Below, one piece after another: positions 19,564 through 29,451 of a DNA stretch of 49,355 nt (its first letter is position 1; every line of letters begins with the position of its first letter). The notes beneath the pieces are model-generated. The model saw nothing but the letters and a program-made list of their open reading frames with translations. It had not been told where the DNA came from and ran no database searches. Origin of the DNA: Blastochloris sp. (GTDB taxonomy: Bacteria; Verrucomicrobiota; Verrucomicrobiia; Methylacidiphilales; JAAUTS01); assembly GCA_012031345.1 (NCBI GenBank), contig JAAUTS010000003.1, positions 1 to 49,355 on the forward strand, in the 5' to 3' direction. Position numbers and translations under genes: made by a program.

Positions 19564-20751
19564 ATGATGGTGCAGAATTCAGCGCGCAGTTACATAGCCG
19601 ATCATGTCCGGGATATTCCCCGGTCGGGTATTCGTGATTTTTTTGAAATCGTTCAATCCATGCGGGACGTGATCTCGCTGGGCATTGGGGAGCCGGACTT
19701 TGTCACGCCTTGGCATATCCGGGAGGCGGCGATTTATGCGTTGGAGCGGGGGAAGACGGGTTACACTTCGAATTTGGGATCTCCGTCTCTGCGGCGGGAG
19801 ATTGCCCGGCATGTGGAGGAGCATTTTGGGGTGAAGTATGATGCGTTGAGCGAGGTGATCGTGGCGGTGGGTGTTTCGGAAGCTTTGGACATTGCGTTAC
19901 GCGCCATTTTGAATCCAGGGGACGAGGTGATTTATCATGAGCCTTGTTATGTTTCCTACAGTCCAAGCATCGCACTGGCGCATGGGAAGGCGGTAGCGGT
20001 CAGGACGCGGGCGGAGGATGGGTTTTCGTTGAAAGCGGAGGATGTGGCGGCGGTGATCACGCCGCGGACCAAGGCGCTGATGTTGAATTTTCCGACCAAT
20101 CCCACCGGAGCAGTTCTGCCCAGAGCGGAGCAGAAGAAGATCGCCGCGCTTTGTCAGGAACATGATCTGGTGGTGTTGACGGATGAGATTTACTCCGACC
20201 TGACCTATGCGCGGGATCACGAGAGCATCGCGTCCCTGCCGGGGATGAAGGAGCGGACGATCTTTCTGCACGGTTTTAGCAAGGCCTATGCCATGACGGG
20301 ATTCCGCATCGGCTATGCCTGTGCGCCAGCGGGTTTGACGGAAGCGATGATGCGGATTCACCAGTATTCCATGTTGTGTGCCTCAATCATCAGTCAAGAG
20401 GCGGCCTTGGAGGCGTTGAAGAACGGGCAGGCTGCGGCGGATACGATGCGTGAGCAGTATGAGCAGAGGAGAAACTTTTTGACCAAAGCCTTTCAGGACA
20501 TGGGACTGGGTTGTGCCCTGCCGAAGGGGGCATTTTATCTTTTTGTGGACATACGCGCCACGGGGCTGAGCAGTCGGGAGTTCGCGCTCAAGTTGTTAGA
20601 GGAGGAGAAAGTGGCGGTGGTGCCGGGGATGCCTTTGGCCGGGGGTGAGGGTTTTGTGCGTTGCAGTTACGCCACAGCGATGGATCAGATCGAAATCGCG
20701 GCGGAGCGGATGGCGGGTTTTGTGCGACGGGTTCAAGGACGGGCTTCATGA
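19564..20751 (+). CDS. Class I/II PLP-dependent aminotransferase (395 aa)
   Basis: Fold-type I aminotransferase, intact. It has MRDVISLGIGEPDFVTPWHI (N-terminal substrate region), GVSEALDIALRAILNPGDEVIYHEPCYVSY, LMLNFPTNPTGAVLP, VLTDEIYSDLTYA (Asp to the pyridine nitrogen) and HGFSKAYAMTGFRIGYACAP with the Schiff-base Lys (about residue 240). The C-terminal FVRCSYATAMDQIEIAAERM carries the carboxylate-binding Arg. The sequence fits aspartate/aromatic/alanine-type enzymes encoded next to Lrp/AsnC regulators; the exact amino acid is not determined. Confidence 0.9.
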   Translation: MMVQNSARSYIADHVRDIPRSGIRDFFEIVQSMRDVISLGIGEPDFVTPWHIREAAIYALERGKTGYTSNLGSPSLRREIARHVEEHFGVKYDALSEVIVAVGVSEALDIALRAILNPGDEVIYHEPCYVSYSPSIALAHGKAVAVRTRAEDGFSLKAEDVAAVITPRTKALMLNFPTNPTGAVLPRAEQKKIAALCQEHDLVVLTDEIYSDLTYARDHESIASLPGMKERTIFLHGFSKAYAMTGFRIGYACAPAGLTEAMMRIHQYSMLCASIISQEAALEALKNGQAAADTMREQYEQRRNFLTKAFQDMGLGCALPKGAFYLFVDIRATGLSSREFALKLLEEEKVAVVPGMPLAGGEGFVRCSYATAMDQIEIAAERMAGFVRRVQGRAS

Positions 20752-20794
20752 CGGAGTTGAGGGAGTCGGGGCCGGTGAACGAATAACTCAAATT

Positions 20795-22371
20795 ATGATT
20801 TACGACGCCGCCATCATCGGAGCAGGGCACAATGGGCTGGTCTGTGCGGCTTACCTGGCCAAGGCGGGCTTGAAGGTGCTGGTGCTGGAGCGGCGGGCTG
20901 AGATTGGGGGGGCGGTTTGCACGCGGGGGGATTTGATTCCCGGTTATAAAATCGATGTGGGCTCTTCGGTGCATATTATGGTGCATTTGACTCCGATTCT
21001 GGAGGAGTTGGAGTTGTGTTCGCGCTTTGGGTTGGAGTATATCGAGATGGATCCCTGGGCGTATTATCCGGTGCTGGGCACGGACCGGGGAATTGCTTTT
21101 CACCGGGATGTGGAAAAAACCTGTGCGAGTATCGCGGCGTTTTCTCCGAAGGATGCAGAGACCTATCGGCGTTTTGTGGCGCATTGGGGTGAGTTGAATG
21201 AAGGGGTGTTTGAGACTTTTTTGCAGGCGCCGACGCCGGGTCGGATTTTCTGGACCATGCTCAAGCGGAACCTGACCCAGGGGAAGAGCCGGAAGTTGTG
21301 GTCGTCGTTGGATACGGTGCGGCAATTGATGGCGCCCTATGGTCAGGTGGTGGAGGAGACTTTTGAAAACGAGCATGTGAAGACGGCACTGCTCTGGCTT
21401 TCGGCCCAGTCCGGTCCGGGACCGCAGGAGGTGGCGGCCGGAGACATGCTGGGTTGGAATGCCATGATTCATCGCAGTGGGGCGAAACGGGCCCGGGGCG
21501 GGTCGGGGGAGTTGAGTGTGGCTTTGGGCCGATGCCTGGAAGCTTATGGGGCTGAGATCCGCACGGAGGCCGAGGTGGCTTGGTTGAAGCAGGGGGCCGG
21601 GGGTTGGGAAATTCAGGCGGGAGAGGAAAGGTTTCAGGCCCGGAAGGTGGTGGCGGCCTGTCATGTGCAGACTTTGTTCGGCAAACTCTTGCAGGGCGGA
21701 CCGGAGGAATTGAAGAAGAGGGTGAGCAAGCTCCGGGTGGGGAATGGATTCGGAATGATCGTGCGGCACGCGGTGGAAGATCTGCCGATTTATACCTCGG
21801 AAGAATCTTCGAAGGAGCAGGCCCCGGCAGTGAGGGATTATCATAGTTCCATGCAGTTGCTTTGTCCGAGTGAGGCTTATTTGAACAGTTCGCATCGGGA
21901 CTTTTCGGCAGGGCTGCCTCCGCGGGAGCCTTCGGTGGTGGCGATGACATTTTCCGCGCTGGACCCGAGCCTGGCGCCGGAGGGCAAACACACCTTGTTC
22001 ACCTGGGGGCAGTATCATCCCTATGAGCTGAGCAATGGGGAGAGTTGGGACGCGATCCGGGAGCGGGAGGCGGACAAGTTGTATGATTTGGTTTGTCGTT
22101 ATGCGCCGAACATGCGGGGGAAGATGCTGGATCGTTACATTCAGACGCCATTGGATATTGAGCGGATGCATGGGTTGCTGCGGGCCAATGTGATGCACCT
22201 GGAGATGAGCATTGATCAGATGTTTTTTTCCGACCCCTGCCGGAGTTGGCGGCTTATAAAACGCCGATGAAAGGGTTGTATTTGACGGGGGCGAGCACGC
22301 ATCCGGGGGGTGGGGTTTTCGGGGCAAGCGGCTATAATACGGCGCGGGTGGTTTTGGGGGATCCCCGCTGA
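20795..22371 (+). CDS. Phytoene-desaturase-like FAD oxidoreductase, one frameshift near the end
   Basis: Flavin amine-oxidase/CrtI-type protein. N-terminal dinucleotide site [32 protein letters not shown] followed by [23 protein letters not shown], then [25 protein letters not shown]. The last FAD motif lies past a frameshift: [32 protein letters not shown]. One T is missing from the T7 run in CAGATGTTTTTTTCCGACC (~22222), which otherwise stops the ORF early. Start ATG 20795 ([11 protein letters not shown]). The closest group is carotenoid-desaturase-like proteins of the COG1233 type, often not true carotenoid enzymes; no crtB or other carotenoid gene is nearby. Confidence 0.83.
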
Positions 22372-23781: not shown

Positions 23782-24228
23782 TTATCGAAGAGGAATGATG
23801 TTGAGACCTTTCAGTCCAAACAGGGGAGCGGCGGCGAGGAGGTGTTGGTCGTTGGAGTAAATTTCCTTAAAACCATGGTGCGCGGCGCAGGCGAGGTGGA
23901 GGGCATCGGAGGCGCGCAGGAAAATGTGGGCAGGGGCGCACTGATAAATGGATTCCACCAAGGCAACAATATCCTTGGTAATGGGAAGCCAGCGCAGTGC
24001 ACCGAGATGTGTTTCCATTTCCAACTGCGCTAGCATCTCTTTGAGGTGTTCTTGGGTTCCGCTTTTTTCACGCATCTTGCGATGACAGGCAGAAGCGAAC
24101 TCCGCTCGTCCGTGGAGGGCACTCACCACGCAATCCATCGTTGCGGCACAGGCTCGCACCTCGGTAGTGCCGTATTCTACGCAATGCACCTTGAAGAGGT
24201 AGGTCGAGTCGAAATAGGCTTCTTTCAA
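23782..24228 (-). CDS. vapC: PIN-domain toxin, VapC-like
   Basis: RNase toxin of a type II toxin-antitoxin pair. It begins MKEAYFDSTYLFKVHCVEYG with the first acidic Asp and Ser/Thr of PIN nucleases. The middle has HGRAEFASACHR (Glu), and the C-terminal part has FLRASDALHLACAAHHGFKEIYSNDQHLLAAAPLFGLKGLNI, where ASDALHLA and SNDQHL hold the remaining acidic residues. The length of 148 aa is usual. It overlaps the antitoxin stop by four bases (ATGA), the normal coupled order antitoxin-toxin. Which RNA it cuts cannot be read from the sequence. Confidence 0.85.
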   Translation of the reverse strand: MKEAYFDSTYLFKVHCVEYGTTEVRACAATMDCVVSALHGRAEFASACHRKMREKSGTQEHLKEMLAQLEMETHLGALRWLPITKDIVALVESIYQCAPAHIFLRASDALHLACAAHHGFKEIYSNDQHLLAAAPLFGLKGLNIIPLR

Positions 24229-24491
24229 CGCTCGTCCCGATCCTCAGAAATGATTTGTGTGGAGTCGGTGCCACCGGAGAAAGCTCCAGCCTTCAGAGCG
24301 GCTTCATAGCCCGGACGTAGCTGGCGATTCGCCCAGTAGGAGACCTTGGGCGCAGTGGGGGCGGGTGATTTCTCCGCTAGCTCATGTTGCAAGCCTCTCA
24401 GGAGCAGGTCTTTCAATGTGGAACCTTCCTCCACAGCACGAATTTTAGCTTGTTTGTAGAGCGGTTCAGGAATATCCAGCGTGGTTCTCAT
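24225..24491 (-). CDS. vapB: Ribbon-helix-helix-type antitoxin, VapB-like
   Basis: Cognate antitoxin of the PIN toxin. MRTTLDIPEPLYKQAKIRAVEEGSTLKDLLLRGLQHEL is a short beta strand plus two helices, as in Arc/MetJ-type DNA-binding domains. The C-terminal ~45 residues (YWANRQLRPGYEAALKAGAFSGGTDSTQIISEDRDER) would be the flexible toxin-binding tail. The final DSTQIISEDRDER resembles the active-site-blocking tails of VapB proteins. It probably represses its own promoter through the inverted repeat just upstream. Confidence 0.82.
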   Translation of the reverse strand: MRTTLDIPEPLYKQAKIRAVEEGSTLKDLLLRGLQHELAEKSPAPTAPKVSYWANRQLRPGYEAALKAGAFSGGTDSTQIISEDRDER

Positions 24492-24986: not shown

Positions 24987-25632
24987 TTATAAAATCGTGC
25001 TGTGATGGCTTTGAAACCAAGAGCGATTTGCTAGCTTACGGAAATCTTGGATTTTGTTATTAAAATCACATTTCCCCAAACGCTTGCCACAACCACAGGG
25101 ACATGTCTGTTTATTTGCCAAACGCTTTTTCATGGCCAAAATTTTTAGCGCATCACGAGCCTGCTGTTGGTTTTTTAGTGAAAAAATATCAATGTAATCG
25201 TCTAGTATTCCGTTATCACCATGATCTAACTCATTAAAAATGAGCTTTCCACCTTCTCTAAGTTTTTTGAAATGGCGAAAAGATAAGGAATTAAACAGAG
25301 TTCAGTAAATCCGAGAACGTCTGGCTTACTTTGAATTTTTAAAAGCAATCGAAGCGGCGAACCAAGACAAAGCGTTCCATCAGGATTTACATGAAATCCC
25401 CCTGTTCTAGGGATGCGTCCTCCTATTTCCAAAACTCGCGGCAACTCTTTAGGAAAATCAATAGGAATAGAAATCTGTAGATTGAAGCTATCCTTACTTT
25501 AAACGTTTGATGGGAAGCCTCAAATTCAAATTCTCCGACAATCCTTATCAGACAAACCTCTGTCGGCCTGATAGCCATCAGCGGATAATCTGAAAGAAAT
25601 TCCTTCAGTCCTGGCGCCTGATCGAAGGCCAT
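24987..25632 (-). CDS. CBASS E2-like conjugating enzyme with C-terminal Cys cluster, two frameshifts
   Basis: Reconstructed protein of about 215 aa. The N-terminal part reads MAFDQAPGLKEFLSDYPLMAI...VGEFEFEA, then DSFNLQISIPIDFPKELPRVLEIGGRIPR. The E2 active site is FHVNPDGTLCLGSPLRLLLKI, with the catalytic Cys in the His...Asn-x-Asp-Gly-x-x-Cys-Leu-Gly context of prokaryotic E2s. It ends DALKILAMKKRLANKQTCPCGCGKRLGKC, a SEC-C-like zinc-binding cluster. Two single A residues are missing (AAAGTAAGG ~25500 and TTCAAAAAACTTAG ~25262). No E1 or JAB protease is adjacent, so this matches the E2-only 'type II short' CBASS layout, where the E2 tunes the cyclase. It starts four bases after the CD-NTase stop. 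Confidence 0.82.
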
Positions 25633-25635
25633 TTT

Positions 25636-26837
25636 TCATTCCTTCATCCAAGGTTTGGGCGGTGTTTCGGTGATAACATGGCTCTTCGTCTTGGAAATGA
25701 TATTTATCTCCGCTTCATCAAATGCCCTCTTTATCATGTTGTCATCGAGATTAATCCCAAATTTGGCACTGGCTTGCTTTACGACGGATTCAGGGTTGGC
25801 GGACCTCTCGATCAAACCAAAATCTGTTTGAGCTTGTTCAAGCCACGCCTTAAAGTTGCCCTCTAGATTCAAATGGGAATATTTTTGATCATGCCATTTG
25901 TCGGCAAAATCTTCCGCTGGATTAACAGGATTAGGCACACGAGGCTTACTTGGCAGAACGTATTTGCTCATGTCTGTTAAAATACGCCTGAGCGAATCTT
26001 CAACCGAATTTTCTCCCTGATAGGCCGCTGCCGATAATGTTGTTAATATGATGGAGATCGGCTTTCGATCTGGATTATTTTTGAACATGACATCCCGATG
26101 CCGTTTAAGGATTTGGATGCACTGCTGGAGAGGAGATTTCCACTTCCAAGCCGGGAGGTCGTCCATCTTGGCTACTTTGGCCTCAAATGCGCGTTTCTCC
26201 AGAAGCTGCCCAGCCAATCTAAGCCTTGATTCAAACCATAGTGCATATCCTTCCGAATTGCTGATGCGCCAGTCACCACTGATGATGCGGTAATCAGGAT
26301 GCCGATTGTCCGTGATTGCTCCGGCATGTTTTGCCACCTTCCCGGCCAAAAAGTCAGATGTTCCCTGCTTGATCATCGACTCTTGCAGGAAAGTGATCTG
26401 ATTCCCATCCTGAGGAATCGAAGGAACCACATCCATGTGGAAACTTAGCTCGTCCGCATATGCCAAGCGCCAGCATCTGTGCATTTCCTCAAGCCTCTCT
26501 TCGATTTTCCGGGCAACGCGATATGCTTCAAGATCTTTGCCAACCAGCTTTTTTAGGAATTCCTGAGTATGCGAAGCCTTTGTGATGCCCGACCGCAACC
26601 GACATCCAAGATCCAAATCGTATGATTCATTCGGATTCAACGGACGAATAACCGTTCCCAATCGAAAAGACCCCTGTGGATAAATATGTGGTGAATATTT
26701 GCTGCTCTCGGATTTGGGGTTCTCAAACCATTCCCCGAGATTTTGGTATCGGGTTTCGGCTTTTCATACGCGCTGGGCGGAATTTCCAATGCTTCTGCAA
26801 TGGCTTCCGTTACTTTATTTGTGATGTTAGTGTTCAT
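25636..26837 (-). CDS. CD-NTase (cGAS/DncV-like nucleotidyltransferase), one frameshift
   Basis: The signal-making enzyme of CBASS. After adding one A in TATGAAAAGCCG (~26766), the N-terminus reads YEKAETRYQNLGEWFENPKSES and YSPHIYPQGSFRLGTVIRPLNPN. It contains the G-S polymerase motif (QGSFRLGT), the D-x-D metal site (ESYDLDLGCRL) and the third Asp in FHMDVVPSIPQ, so the whole catalytic triad is present. Length about 400 aa, normal for the family. The remainder (SPLQQCIQILKRHRDVMF, SVEDSLRRILTDM) is the helical C-terminal lobe. The start overlaps the capV stop by four bases. The product nucleotide and clade cannot be decided by eye. Confidence 0.88.
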
Positions 26838-27795
26838 AAATTGTATAGGTTGTAGCTAGGCGTGTAAGGGACTGCTTTATGGTCAAAGAACCCTTTGTCC
26901 ATGAGATCAGACGATTGATGTCGCCATTGAGCATCTGCCAAGGCAAGGAGTTCATGACTGAGTTTATCCAACTTGAAGTCTCCGGCTGCCACCTTCGGGT
27001 TGATTTCGTGGTAGCGATCCTTGCCGAGAAGATGAGTTACCATTCCTGACGCAGATTGGGATTGTCCCCGCATCATAAAATTGATGAGAGGCCCCGCCAT
27101 GGCAGCTTTTCCTCCAGCAGTTTTAATTTTCTCTATGGAATAGATTTCATCCGTTGTCCCAATTCGTAGTGCTGCGATATTTTTTGATCTTGGCCCAGAT
27201 ATCCCAAACCTTCAGCCACGGCAAGCATGACAGGATTATTTGACCATATCCCCCCATCAACAAGTTCCAAGCCGGAATCTTTGACGTGGGGAGTAAAGTA
27301 TGTGGGAGCAGCACTTGTGGCCAATGCAACATGAACCGCGAGCTCCTTAAAATCAGTTTGTAGGCGTTTGTGATGAGGGGTTTTGAAAATGTGGATTCCC
27401 TCAAATTTCGGGTCAAACGCAGGTATCAGCAGGCGAGTTTTGCTTTCGCCAAGTTTCCTACTCTCCAGAAGCTCTTCCAACGCTTTGTGGAGTCCTTCAC
27501 TGGAATATTTGACATCAATCCAGTGTTTGGCATCTCCAAGGAGCGAAGATGGAAAAATTTGTTCCCCCTTGGACAAATAGAGTTCCATGATCTGGGCCGC
27601 GCTAAATCCAAGCCCAAGTCCGATGGCAATGATGCCACCCGTGCTGGTCCCTGCGATCAGATCAAAGTGATCAACAACGCGGGTATTTCGTTCGGCTTCC
27701 CATTTGGCAAGCAGTGCTATAGAAAAAAGTCCCTTAAGACCACCACCATCAAGAGAAAGAATTTGAAACCGGGATGTTTCCGTCGCAATATGCAT
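26834..27795 (-). CDS. capV: CapV patatin-like phospholipase, CBASS effector, one frameshift
   Basis: Membrane-degrading effector activated by cyclic nucleotides. It has FQILSLDGGGLKGLFSIALLAKWE (oxyanion D-G-G-G-x-K/R-G), LIAGTSTGGIIAIGLGLG (nucleophile Ser in G-x-S-x-G) and LELVDGGIWSNNPVMLAVAEG (catalytic Asp in D-G-G). One A is missing from GATCAAAAAATATCG (~27180). With it the protein continues NIAALRIGTTDEIYSIEKIKTAGGKAAMAGPLINFMM to a normal end at 26834, about 320 aa in total. A promoter and operator-like site lie just upstream. Encoded directly before the CD-NTase, as expected for an effector-cyclase pair. Confidence 0.9.
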
Positions 27796-27840: not shown

Positions 27841-28545
27841 TTATAAATCTACTTGTTTTGTTGGGGGGAATATCTCAGTGAGCCGAATTCTGGCCACTAC
27901 GGGATTAACATCGAACGTTTCTGCCAAATGCTGTTCGGCTTTTTGGCGCTTCGAGCCAGGAAGCTTGGGCCCATATTGGCTTTCTTCTAGAAATGAGGAT
28001 ATGGCCTTTCTAAATAAACTCTTGGGAAGCAAAAGTCCACTAATCGCCCTGTTGGCTTGCCATTCCCACCATTTGCCGTTGTAAACTGGTGTGCCAGATA
28101 CCGGGGAAATATCCGAGGTCCTACAAAGAAATTTAGGACTACCTTTATGAGAAGGGTCTTGGGGACCGAATAAACTGGGCGTGGAATCTTCTATAAAAAG
28201 CTTGGGATGAAGCAAGCCATGTCCCCCTTCATGAGCCAATGTAGAGCGCACTCGACGTTCAGCAGTGGCAGTTCCTTCATGTTCAATTCTGGAAGAAATA
28301 AGAAAACCCGTCACCGCGCCTTTGCTGTTGAAGATCGCAGAACCCATAATCCCATCTCCCAAATCGGGATAATCCACTACGACTTGAAAATATTTCTCGA
28401 GAAAAAGGTCCACTTTGATGGGCTCTGGATTTTCAGGAAGGAGTTTGACCTGACGCAAGGCGTCACAGCAAATATCATCAATTTCGGAGACTTCATATTG
28501 GAGTCTCAGAGGATAGGGACCTTCACGCGTGCGAAATTCCTTCAC
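27841..28545 (-). CDS. capP: CapP-like ImmA/IrrE metallopeptidase, CBASS regulator (234 aa)
   Basis: Zinc peptidase with the H-E-x-x-H motif in RSTLAHEGGHGLLHPKLF and a downstream acidic ligand helix WWEWQANRAISGLLLPKSLF, as in ImmA/IrrE (COG2856) proteins. The C-terminal part (AEQHLAETFDVNPVVARIRLTEI) is a helical DNA-binding-like or substrate domain. Its gene overlaps the HTH gene capH by four bases and precedes capV. In known CBASS operons with this pair, CapP cleaves the repressor CapH after sensing DNA damage, releasing the operon. The same role here follows from family and position. Confidence 0.85.
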   Translation of the reverse strand: MKEFRTREGPYPLRLQYEVSEIDDICCDALRQVKLLPENPEPIKVDLFLEKYFQVVVDYPDLGDGIMGSAIFNSKGAVTGFLISSRIEHEGTATAERRVRSTLAHEGGHGLLHPKLFIEDSTPSLFGPQDPSHKGSPKFLCRTSDISPVSGTPVYNGKWWEWQANRAISGLLLPKSLFRKAISSFLEESQYGPKLPGSKRQKAEQHLAETFDVNPVVARIRLTEIFPPTKQVDL

Positions 28546-28883
28546 TTGCCTTTTTGCTTAGAAACGATTTTTTGAATTTCTTCTAGAGAAAGTTCGCTTT
28601 GAAGGATAGACCGAAAAGCCAGTCCTGCTTTAGGATCAGCGAACATCATATTGCGGATTGCTTCGGCCTCATCACGGAAATCATATTGTTTTAATTCTTC
28701 AGCCGGAACCCCGATTTCTTTGGCTAAAAATTCCAGTTTATCAGCGGAAGGGAATCGCCGACCTAGTTCGATGTCGGAAAGGAACGCTCCCGACACCCCG
28801 ATCCTCTTTGCAAGCTCGCGCAGAGAGATATTTTTTTCTTCACGCAATTGTCGAAGTTTTGAACCGAATGATATTTTGTCCAC
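28542..28883 (-). CDS. capH: CapH-like HTH repressor of the CBASS operon (113 aa)
   Basis: Xre-type helix-turn-helix protein: FGSKLRQLREEKNISLRELAKRIGVSGAFLSDIELGRRFPSADKLEFLAKEIGV fills the first ~65 residues. A C-terminal tail (DEAEAIRNMMFADPKAGLAFRSILQSELSLEEIQKIVSKQKGK) would form the dimerisation part and contain the peptidase cleavage region. GTG start at 28883. It overlaps capP by four bases. An operator-like palindrome lies directly against its start, pointing to autorepression. Confidence 0.85.
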   Translation of the reverse strand: MDKISFGSKLRQLREEKNISLRELAKRIGVSGAFLSDIELGRRFPSADKLEFLAKEIGVPAEELKQYDFRDEAEAIRNMMFADPKAGLAFRSILQSELSLEEIQKIVSKQKGK

Positions 28884-28986: not shown

Positions 28987-29451
28987 GTGTCGCATTCAAA
29001 AAAACTAAAATCCTCAGCTGTTTATAAGCCAGATGGCTCGGATGTGAAGCGTTTTCTCTTCACTGGCGTCACAAAGGGGCTTTTCGGTGAGGTGGCATTT
29101 GATTCTGGTCCAGAGCGCGACTTGGCCGTCGTCATGGAGGATGACAGCAAGGTGTTGAAGTGGTTACGACCTTCGCTTAACCAACTCCCTATTTTCTATC
29201 GGGGCCGGTTCTACAATGTGGATTTTGTTGTCGAGACAGAGACCACGAAGTTCCTGATCGAAGTGAAAGCGCGAAACTCACTCGCTGAAGGTGATGTCCG
29301 GGAGAAGGCCAAGTCCGCCATCCGGTGGTGCGAAGTTGCATCAGGCGTAGAGAAAGGTAAGAAATGGGATTATCGTTTGATTCCTGACGATGCCGTGAAG
29401 CGGACAAGTGATTTTCATTTCATTATTGGGCAAGCTGTAACCGTTATTTAA
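28987..29451 (+). CDS. C-terminal nuclease part of a type III restriction enzyme R subunit (remnant or stand-alone)
   Basis: A 154-aa ORF matching only the extreme C-terminus of Res subunits. It carries DSGPERDLAVVMEDDSKVLKWLRPSLNQLPIFYRGRFYNVDFVVETETTKFLIEVKARN, with D...E-x-K of a PD-(D/E)xK nuclease, then KAKSAIRWCEVAS and YRLIPDDAV. The helicase region of about 700 or more residues that normally precedes it is absent. An in-frame stop lies 10 bases before the GTG start, so it is truncated at the junction with the CBASS operon. No Mod methylase is present. It could still be expressed as a small nuclease at the head of the following operon, whose first gene begins 16 bases downstream. Confidence 0.75.
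   Translation: MSHSKKLKSSAVYKPDGSDVKRFLFTGVTKGLFGEVAFDSGPERDLAVVMEDDSKVLKWLRPSLNQLPIFYRGRFYNVDFVVETETTKFLIEVKARNSLAEGDVREKAKSAIRWCEVASGVEKGKKWDYRLIPDDAVKRTSDFHFIIGQAVTVI

Follow-up and report, generated by a model that had tools for sequence, protein, structure and literature searches.

CBASS E2 enzymes that work without an E1 are already known, as are the PADLOC and RefSeq family entries and the public SEC-C annotation referred to below. A lone E2 of Serratia marcescens reportedly acts on the CBASS cGAS/CdnG without an E1. SmCdnG, which is present in the PDB (8hsb, 407 residues), is presumably the cyclase of that study. A table in PMC12135389 lists Y405 of a prokaryotic cGAS as an E2-dependent site that promotes activation. 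The Cap2-type E1-E2 CBASS and the 6A operon (E2-E1-JAB/MBL; row 6a of PMC1779556) resemble the locus described here in having conjugation enzymes beside a CD-NTase or an MBL protein. The type II-short CBASS (PDLC00859 family) shares its gene order, full-length E2 profile, DncV-like cyclase and patatin/SAVED effectors. From this family the locus differs in nothing essential; it is a frameshifted member. It lies in a stretch of 49,355 nucleotides, analysed as a whole and called the window here, and comprises the following genes:

28542..28883, minus strand: HTH regulator, CapH-like (PADLOC capH, 2.4e-11; Pfam HTH_19, 2.1e-15)
27841..28545, minus strand: ImmA/IrrE-type peptidase, CapP-like regulator (PADLOC capP, 5.1e-10)
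26834..27795, minus strand: patatin phospholipase effector, CapV-like, frameshifted near 27100-27133 (NCBIfam NF041079 CBASS lipase, 7.2e-65, above the cut-off)
25636..26837, minus strand: DncV-like CD-NTase (cGAS-like), frameshifted near 26750 (Pfam PF21654, 1.5e-8; PADLOC cyclase, 3.1e-96)
25639..25656, minus strand: KPWMKE, the C-terminal [KR]P[WY] tag of the CD-NTase, a proposed E2 processing/conjugation site (sequence comparison)
24987..25632, minus strand: CBASS lone E2 gene with two apparent frameshifts, near 25490 and near 25262 (PADLOC PDLC00859 on the joined frames)

The genes follow one another in this order on the minus strand. With a CD-NTase beside an E2 and an effector, and neither E1 nor JAB in the operon, the locus is a type II-short CBASS. 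A preliminary description of this DNA had called the E2 lone, and the assembly (86.8% complete) agrees: it yielded no JAB gene, and its sole ThiF/E1-type gene sits on another contig (C72). The operon adjoins the gene of a PIN-domain protein (23782-24491, minus strand), which follows a small gene for a probable antitoxin. A short ORF (28987-29451), oriented divergently to the CBASS regulators, weakly matches TnsA-like/NERD nuclease domains. A tandem arrangement of CD-NTases was seen elsewhere (L020:1132-6636), with patatin and cyclase followed by SAVED, cyclase and E2-SEC-C.

The motifs of the E2 gene, the last two of which overlap, are the following:

25361..25393, minus strand: HVNPDGTLCLG, E2 active site with the catalytic Cys (His and Cys invariant in 25 diverse relatives)
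25218..25235, minus strand: NELDHG, second invariant His motif (E-L-x-H-G) of this E2 family (conservation in relatives)
25109-25068, minus strand: tail motif QTCPCGCGKRLGKC, encoded by the E2 tail segment
25065..25103, minus strand: SEC-C-type knuckle CPCGCGKRLGKCD, ligand-swapped, with Cys at position 5 and no His/Cys after the last Cys (profile and motif comparison)

The active site and QTCPCGCGKRLGKC are read in different frames, so the fusion of core and tail needs a frame change near 25262. This change falls at a run of A residues. The preliminary description had placed the Cys cluster in the same protein as the E2 core, provided that the frame repair at this point was right. The tail segment alone matched the PADLOC E2 profile PDLC00859 with E = 3.2e-38 (profile positions 124-214 of 221). 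The frames, joined at the protein level for searches only, matched it with 3.1e-78 over residues 5-211, covering 207 of 213 residues. About 40 relatives carry core and tail within a single open frame. The tail match and these intact relatives exclude a wrong repair, and the Cys cluster belongs to the E2.

Among the PADLOC profiles, the window E2 falls in the PDLC00859/872/871/865 group. Pfam and NCBIfam scans of the protein assigned no family, with no Pfam match at E<=1. A PDB search with the single sequence returned a weak YchJ match and nothing else meaningful, so a profile of relatives was needed. The profile, built from eight relatives, matched eukaryotic E2 structures in the PDB. An AlphaFold2 model of the relative L018 had a mean pLDDT of 88.8 (94-97 in the tail/knuckle blocks), and Foldseek placed it with UFC1-type E2s at a probability of 1.00, but with weak E-values (~1e-3). 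These matches and the model agree with a UBC fold carrying an active-site Cys. Across the 25 diverse E2s, the active-site His and Cys, a second His and Gly in the E-L-x-H-G region and three knuckle Cys residues were invariant; the knuckle Cys residues are thus as invariant as the catalytic one. Judged by sequence, the window E2 is of the long class, with a predicted UBC core, a helical extension bearing E-L-x-H-G, and an integral C-terminal SEC-C zinc knuckle.

The SEC-C-like character of the tail, as suggested in the preliminary description, was borne out. The eight-relative profile matched the C-terminal zinc structures of SecA (1ozb, 1sx0 and 1tm6) and the YchJ zinc structure, and RefSeq already names four plasmid relatives SEC-C proteins. 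The alignment to Pfam SEC-C (PF02810) proposed there gave a divided result: four of the eight relatives matched, but the window protein did not, and the Vibrio relative L010 was also missed. The window E2 shares the C-x-C-x8-C spacing of SecA and YchJ. It differs in the fourth ligand, which in its clade is the Cys at position 5 and not a His/Cys after the last Cys. In SecA and most other relatives the motif reads CPCGS-x6-C-H, and canonical members in general have CPCGS-x6-C-H or -C; in the window clade it is CPCGC-x6-C, after which almost any residue may stand (CPCGC-x6-C-D in the window). CPCGCGKRLGKCD therefore has the three shared Cys residues of the PF02810 pattern CxC-x8-C[HC], with the fourth ligand moved. 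This swap lets the window clade escape the Pfam model. It also explains why a large clade of such E2s is labeled "hypothetical protein", as the nearest plasmid relatives are.

The two alternative fourth ligands almost never coincide. Of the 53 distinct motifs, the His/Cys following the last Cys is the sole alternative in 29 and the position-5 Cys in 22, so that exactly one of the two is present in 51. The E2 of L034 carries both (CPCGCQRNLSQCC) and may be an intermediate; that of L083 carries neither (CYCGSGVSMKKCN), possibly a loss. Mapped onto an E2-core tree, the position-5 trait required one change. Repeated covariation of the two positions is ruled out by this single change, and the near-perfect exclusivity reflects one ligand relocation kept across a deep clade. 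The one-or-other pattern supports a predicted four-ligand metal site.

How common the fusion is had been left open. To keep the tail from biasing the result, we queried the species-genome collection with the core of the E2 alone (A1). The search yielded 44 loci, and one of them (L058) ends at a contig edge, leaving 43 assessable. A SEC-C tail was found in 40 of the 43 (39 with C-x-C...C in frame, and L025 after a frame change), although several of the 44 loci are near-identical marine copies and the independent lineages are fewer than the count. The tail is absent in L059-L061. The fusion is the rule, standard for the long E2 class; the SEC-C idea was right but describes an ordinary feature. 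In viral contigs, the single-sequence E2 query gave no match, the profile A7 gave one locus, and queries with the partner proteins found none.

Immediately upstream of E2-SEC-C, the encoded proteins vary in their C-terminal tails, but almost all of them finish with [K/R]P[W/Y] and 1-9 further residues. The motif occurred in 45 of 53 distinct partner ends and in none of 466 other ORF ends from the same loci; for P[WYH] the figures were 51/53 and 12/466. The CD-NTase partners are mutually homologous and are not independent counts, so the stronger evidence for the tag comes from non-homologous partners. Loci obtained after the rule had been noticed also fit (KPWRN in L114, KPWRH in L115, and KPWRK in L103). 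We also surveyed 200 Pseudomonadota genomes starting from the cyclase: two cyclases lie beside E2-SEC-C and end in SPWSSWG and KPWRK. The other ten DncV-like cyclases end in Ala/Gly, one of them with a short extension. Downstream of most of these ten, an unrelated E2-like ORF starts, as in Cap2, in stretches too short to show an E1 part. PDB 9woo is a solved cyclic GMP-AMP synthase with essentially the L010-type cyclase sequence, including the SSDPKPWFK end. The tail-less E2s of L059-L061 and the degenerate-tail E2 of L003 still adjoin a PW-tagged cyclase. These loci weaken the knuckle as a requirement for the tag and indicate that the tag does not depend on it.

Three partners are not CD-NTases, each kind being represented by one case. 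The partner in L017 is a Pycsar cyclase (PycC, 2.3e-116) ending in RPWLKRS, that in L012 is an MBL protein related to the 6A-MBL system ending in KPWQRG, and that in L006 is a ThsB-like TIR protein (8.9e-65) with a C-terminal extension of ~45 residues ending in RPHCNVRSNP. The partner gene overlaps the E2 gene by ~8-20 bases in each case. As controls, PycC homologues without an E2 have no tag, TIR homologues without an E2 end at the domain boundary, and MBL homologues (~44% identity) beside E2-E1-JAB end in PMG, PMGGQ or PMGTEHE. The MBL ends suggest that, in 6A systems, it is the MBL protein itself that becomes conjugated. We lean slightly toward regarding E2-SEC-C with a C-terminal [K/R]P[W/Y/H]-x(1-9) tag as a portable E1-independent conjugation module, which would serve CD-NTases, a Pycsar cyclase, a ThsB-like TIR and a 6A-like MBL; the MBL tag would switch between PMG (E1 route) and KPW (E1-less route) with the adjoining conjugation enzyme. 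A search for further MBL-type partners in 198 Bacteroidota genomes found only distant MBLs. The L017 operon (L017:3434-5555, Chryseobacterium plasmid pA2BH1) consists of a Pycsar effector, PycC and SEC-C E2, and the L006 operon (L006:269-2073) of a 2TM protein (PDC-M50A), the ThsB-like TIR (PDC-M50B) and SEC-C E2. The two kinds of 6A-like MBL end are found in L012:3881-5618 (KPWQRG, lone E2-SEC-C) and in L065-L067 (PMG(x), E2-E1-JAB).

The E1-linked systems differ from the present one in these ends: Cap2-type and 6A partners end in Gly/Ala or PMG, whereas partners of the lone E2-SEC-C end in [KR]P[WY]x. The Serratia CBASS shares with it a lone E2 beside a cyclase that has an aromatic residue a few positions before its end. 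The plasmid homologues of SmCdnG are distinct from the window type, having E2s of 146-163 aa without SEC-C and cyclase ends that read NTFFGR, NNFFGK, NTYFGD and NRFYGD and not [KR]P[WY]. The window locus has neither the short E2 (PDLC00863/864 group) nor the aromatic-Gly-x cyclase end of the Serratia type. SmCdnG-type cyclases whose short E2 neighbor bears a W.GGG motif and lacks SEC-C (L109, L110, L112 and L113) form a second E1-less tag class; the L109 E2 matches the 864/863/876 PADLOC profiles. A further SmCdnG homologue (L111) ends in GRLG beside an E1-E2-like frame. Two E1-less classes thus seem to use an aromatic residue close to the C-terminus, and only one of them has SEC-C. Since the Serratia-type E2s lack the knuckle, it is not what enables E1-independence, which, on these sequences, does not seem to need one.

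With a probability of about 0.6, we read the window gene as the lone long-class E2-SEC-C of a type II-short CBASS that processes the tag of the adjoining cyclase and conjugates the cyclase without an E1. The active-site Cys would act on the tag (KPW|MKE in the window), and the residues after the aromatic would be cut off. The new C-terminus of the cyclase would be carried on the E2 as a thioester and then passed to a lysine. Conjugation would tune the cyclase output, and with it patatin activation, as has been reported for the E2 of Serratia. We infer these steps for the window by analogy, since the E2-only enzyme that has been characterised probably belongs to the short class lacking SEC-C. 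For the knuckle, our best guess is a structural or substrate-positioning role: its zinc site would be structural, giving the E2 its shape on the side that faces the substrate, and would not be an address for the ribosome or nucleic acid.

The knuckle could have a more direct part and grip the basic-Pro-aromatic tail of the partner, presenting it to the active site. Knuckle and tag occur together in nearly all loci, over four partner folds, and the knuckle lies within the confidently folded tail of the L018 model; PW-tagged cyclases beside E2s with no knuckle or a degenerate one speak against such a grip, which we regard as a tentative idea on the unlikely side. The preliminary description had offered the tail as an address for the ribosome, nucleic acid or a protein partner, or as a substitute for the E1-recognition surface. 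In SecA, the SEC-C motif contacts proteins and the ribosome, and a SecB-like partner would fit the same idea. The gene context shows no such partners and has the tagged neighbor as its constant associate. With E1-less E2s of the Serratia type also lacking a knuckle, the proposal found no support and appears very improbable. Alternatively, no conjugation might occur: the tag would serve as a docking peptide, and the E2 would regulate the adjoining enzyme non-covalently. The 1-9 residues after the aromatic are unconserved in sequence, and there is no Gly/Ala end as in E1-dependent systems, both of which would suit docking. We nevertheless consider it unlikely, given the invariance of the active-site Cys and its His in the 25 diverse sequences and the entry in the PMC12135389 table, according to which a related E1-less E2 conjugates cGAS at an aromatic near the C-terminus.

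The frame changes bear on the window copy itself. All three core genes read as frameshifted, so this copy may be non-functional as it stands. A dead, decaying CBASS with true mutations would account for the clustering, over 2.7 kb, of two frame changes in the E2 with those in the cyclase and the patatin. The same kind of split, however, affects rpoB of the same assembly, which is divided into two overlapping frames (G000:C101:2095-5843), and a phytoene dehydrogenase-like gene in the window (20645-22371). All motif residues are kept in the window copy, and decay seems quite improbable. The E2 frame changes are probably sequence errors in an assembly that carries indel errors, because one falls at the A run and the cyclase, patatin and rpoB are also split.

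In the literature searched, we met no paper joining SEC-C with CBASS and did not meet the phrase "type II-short CBASS". The same search, partial in its coverage and so compatible with a prior description, returned none of the ligand swap, of the [KR]P[WY] tag, or of the tag on Pycsar, TIR and MBL partners. A conserved tag that predicts the substrate makes the question of how an E2 can work without an E1 directly testable in many systems. If the tag is also read on Pycsar cyclases, TIR and MBL proteins, conjugation would be a general control layer of bacterial signalling immunity and not a peculiarity of CBASS.
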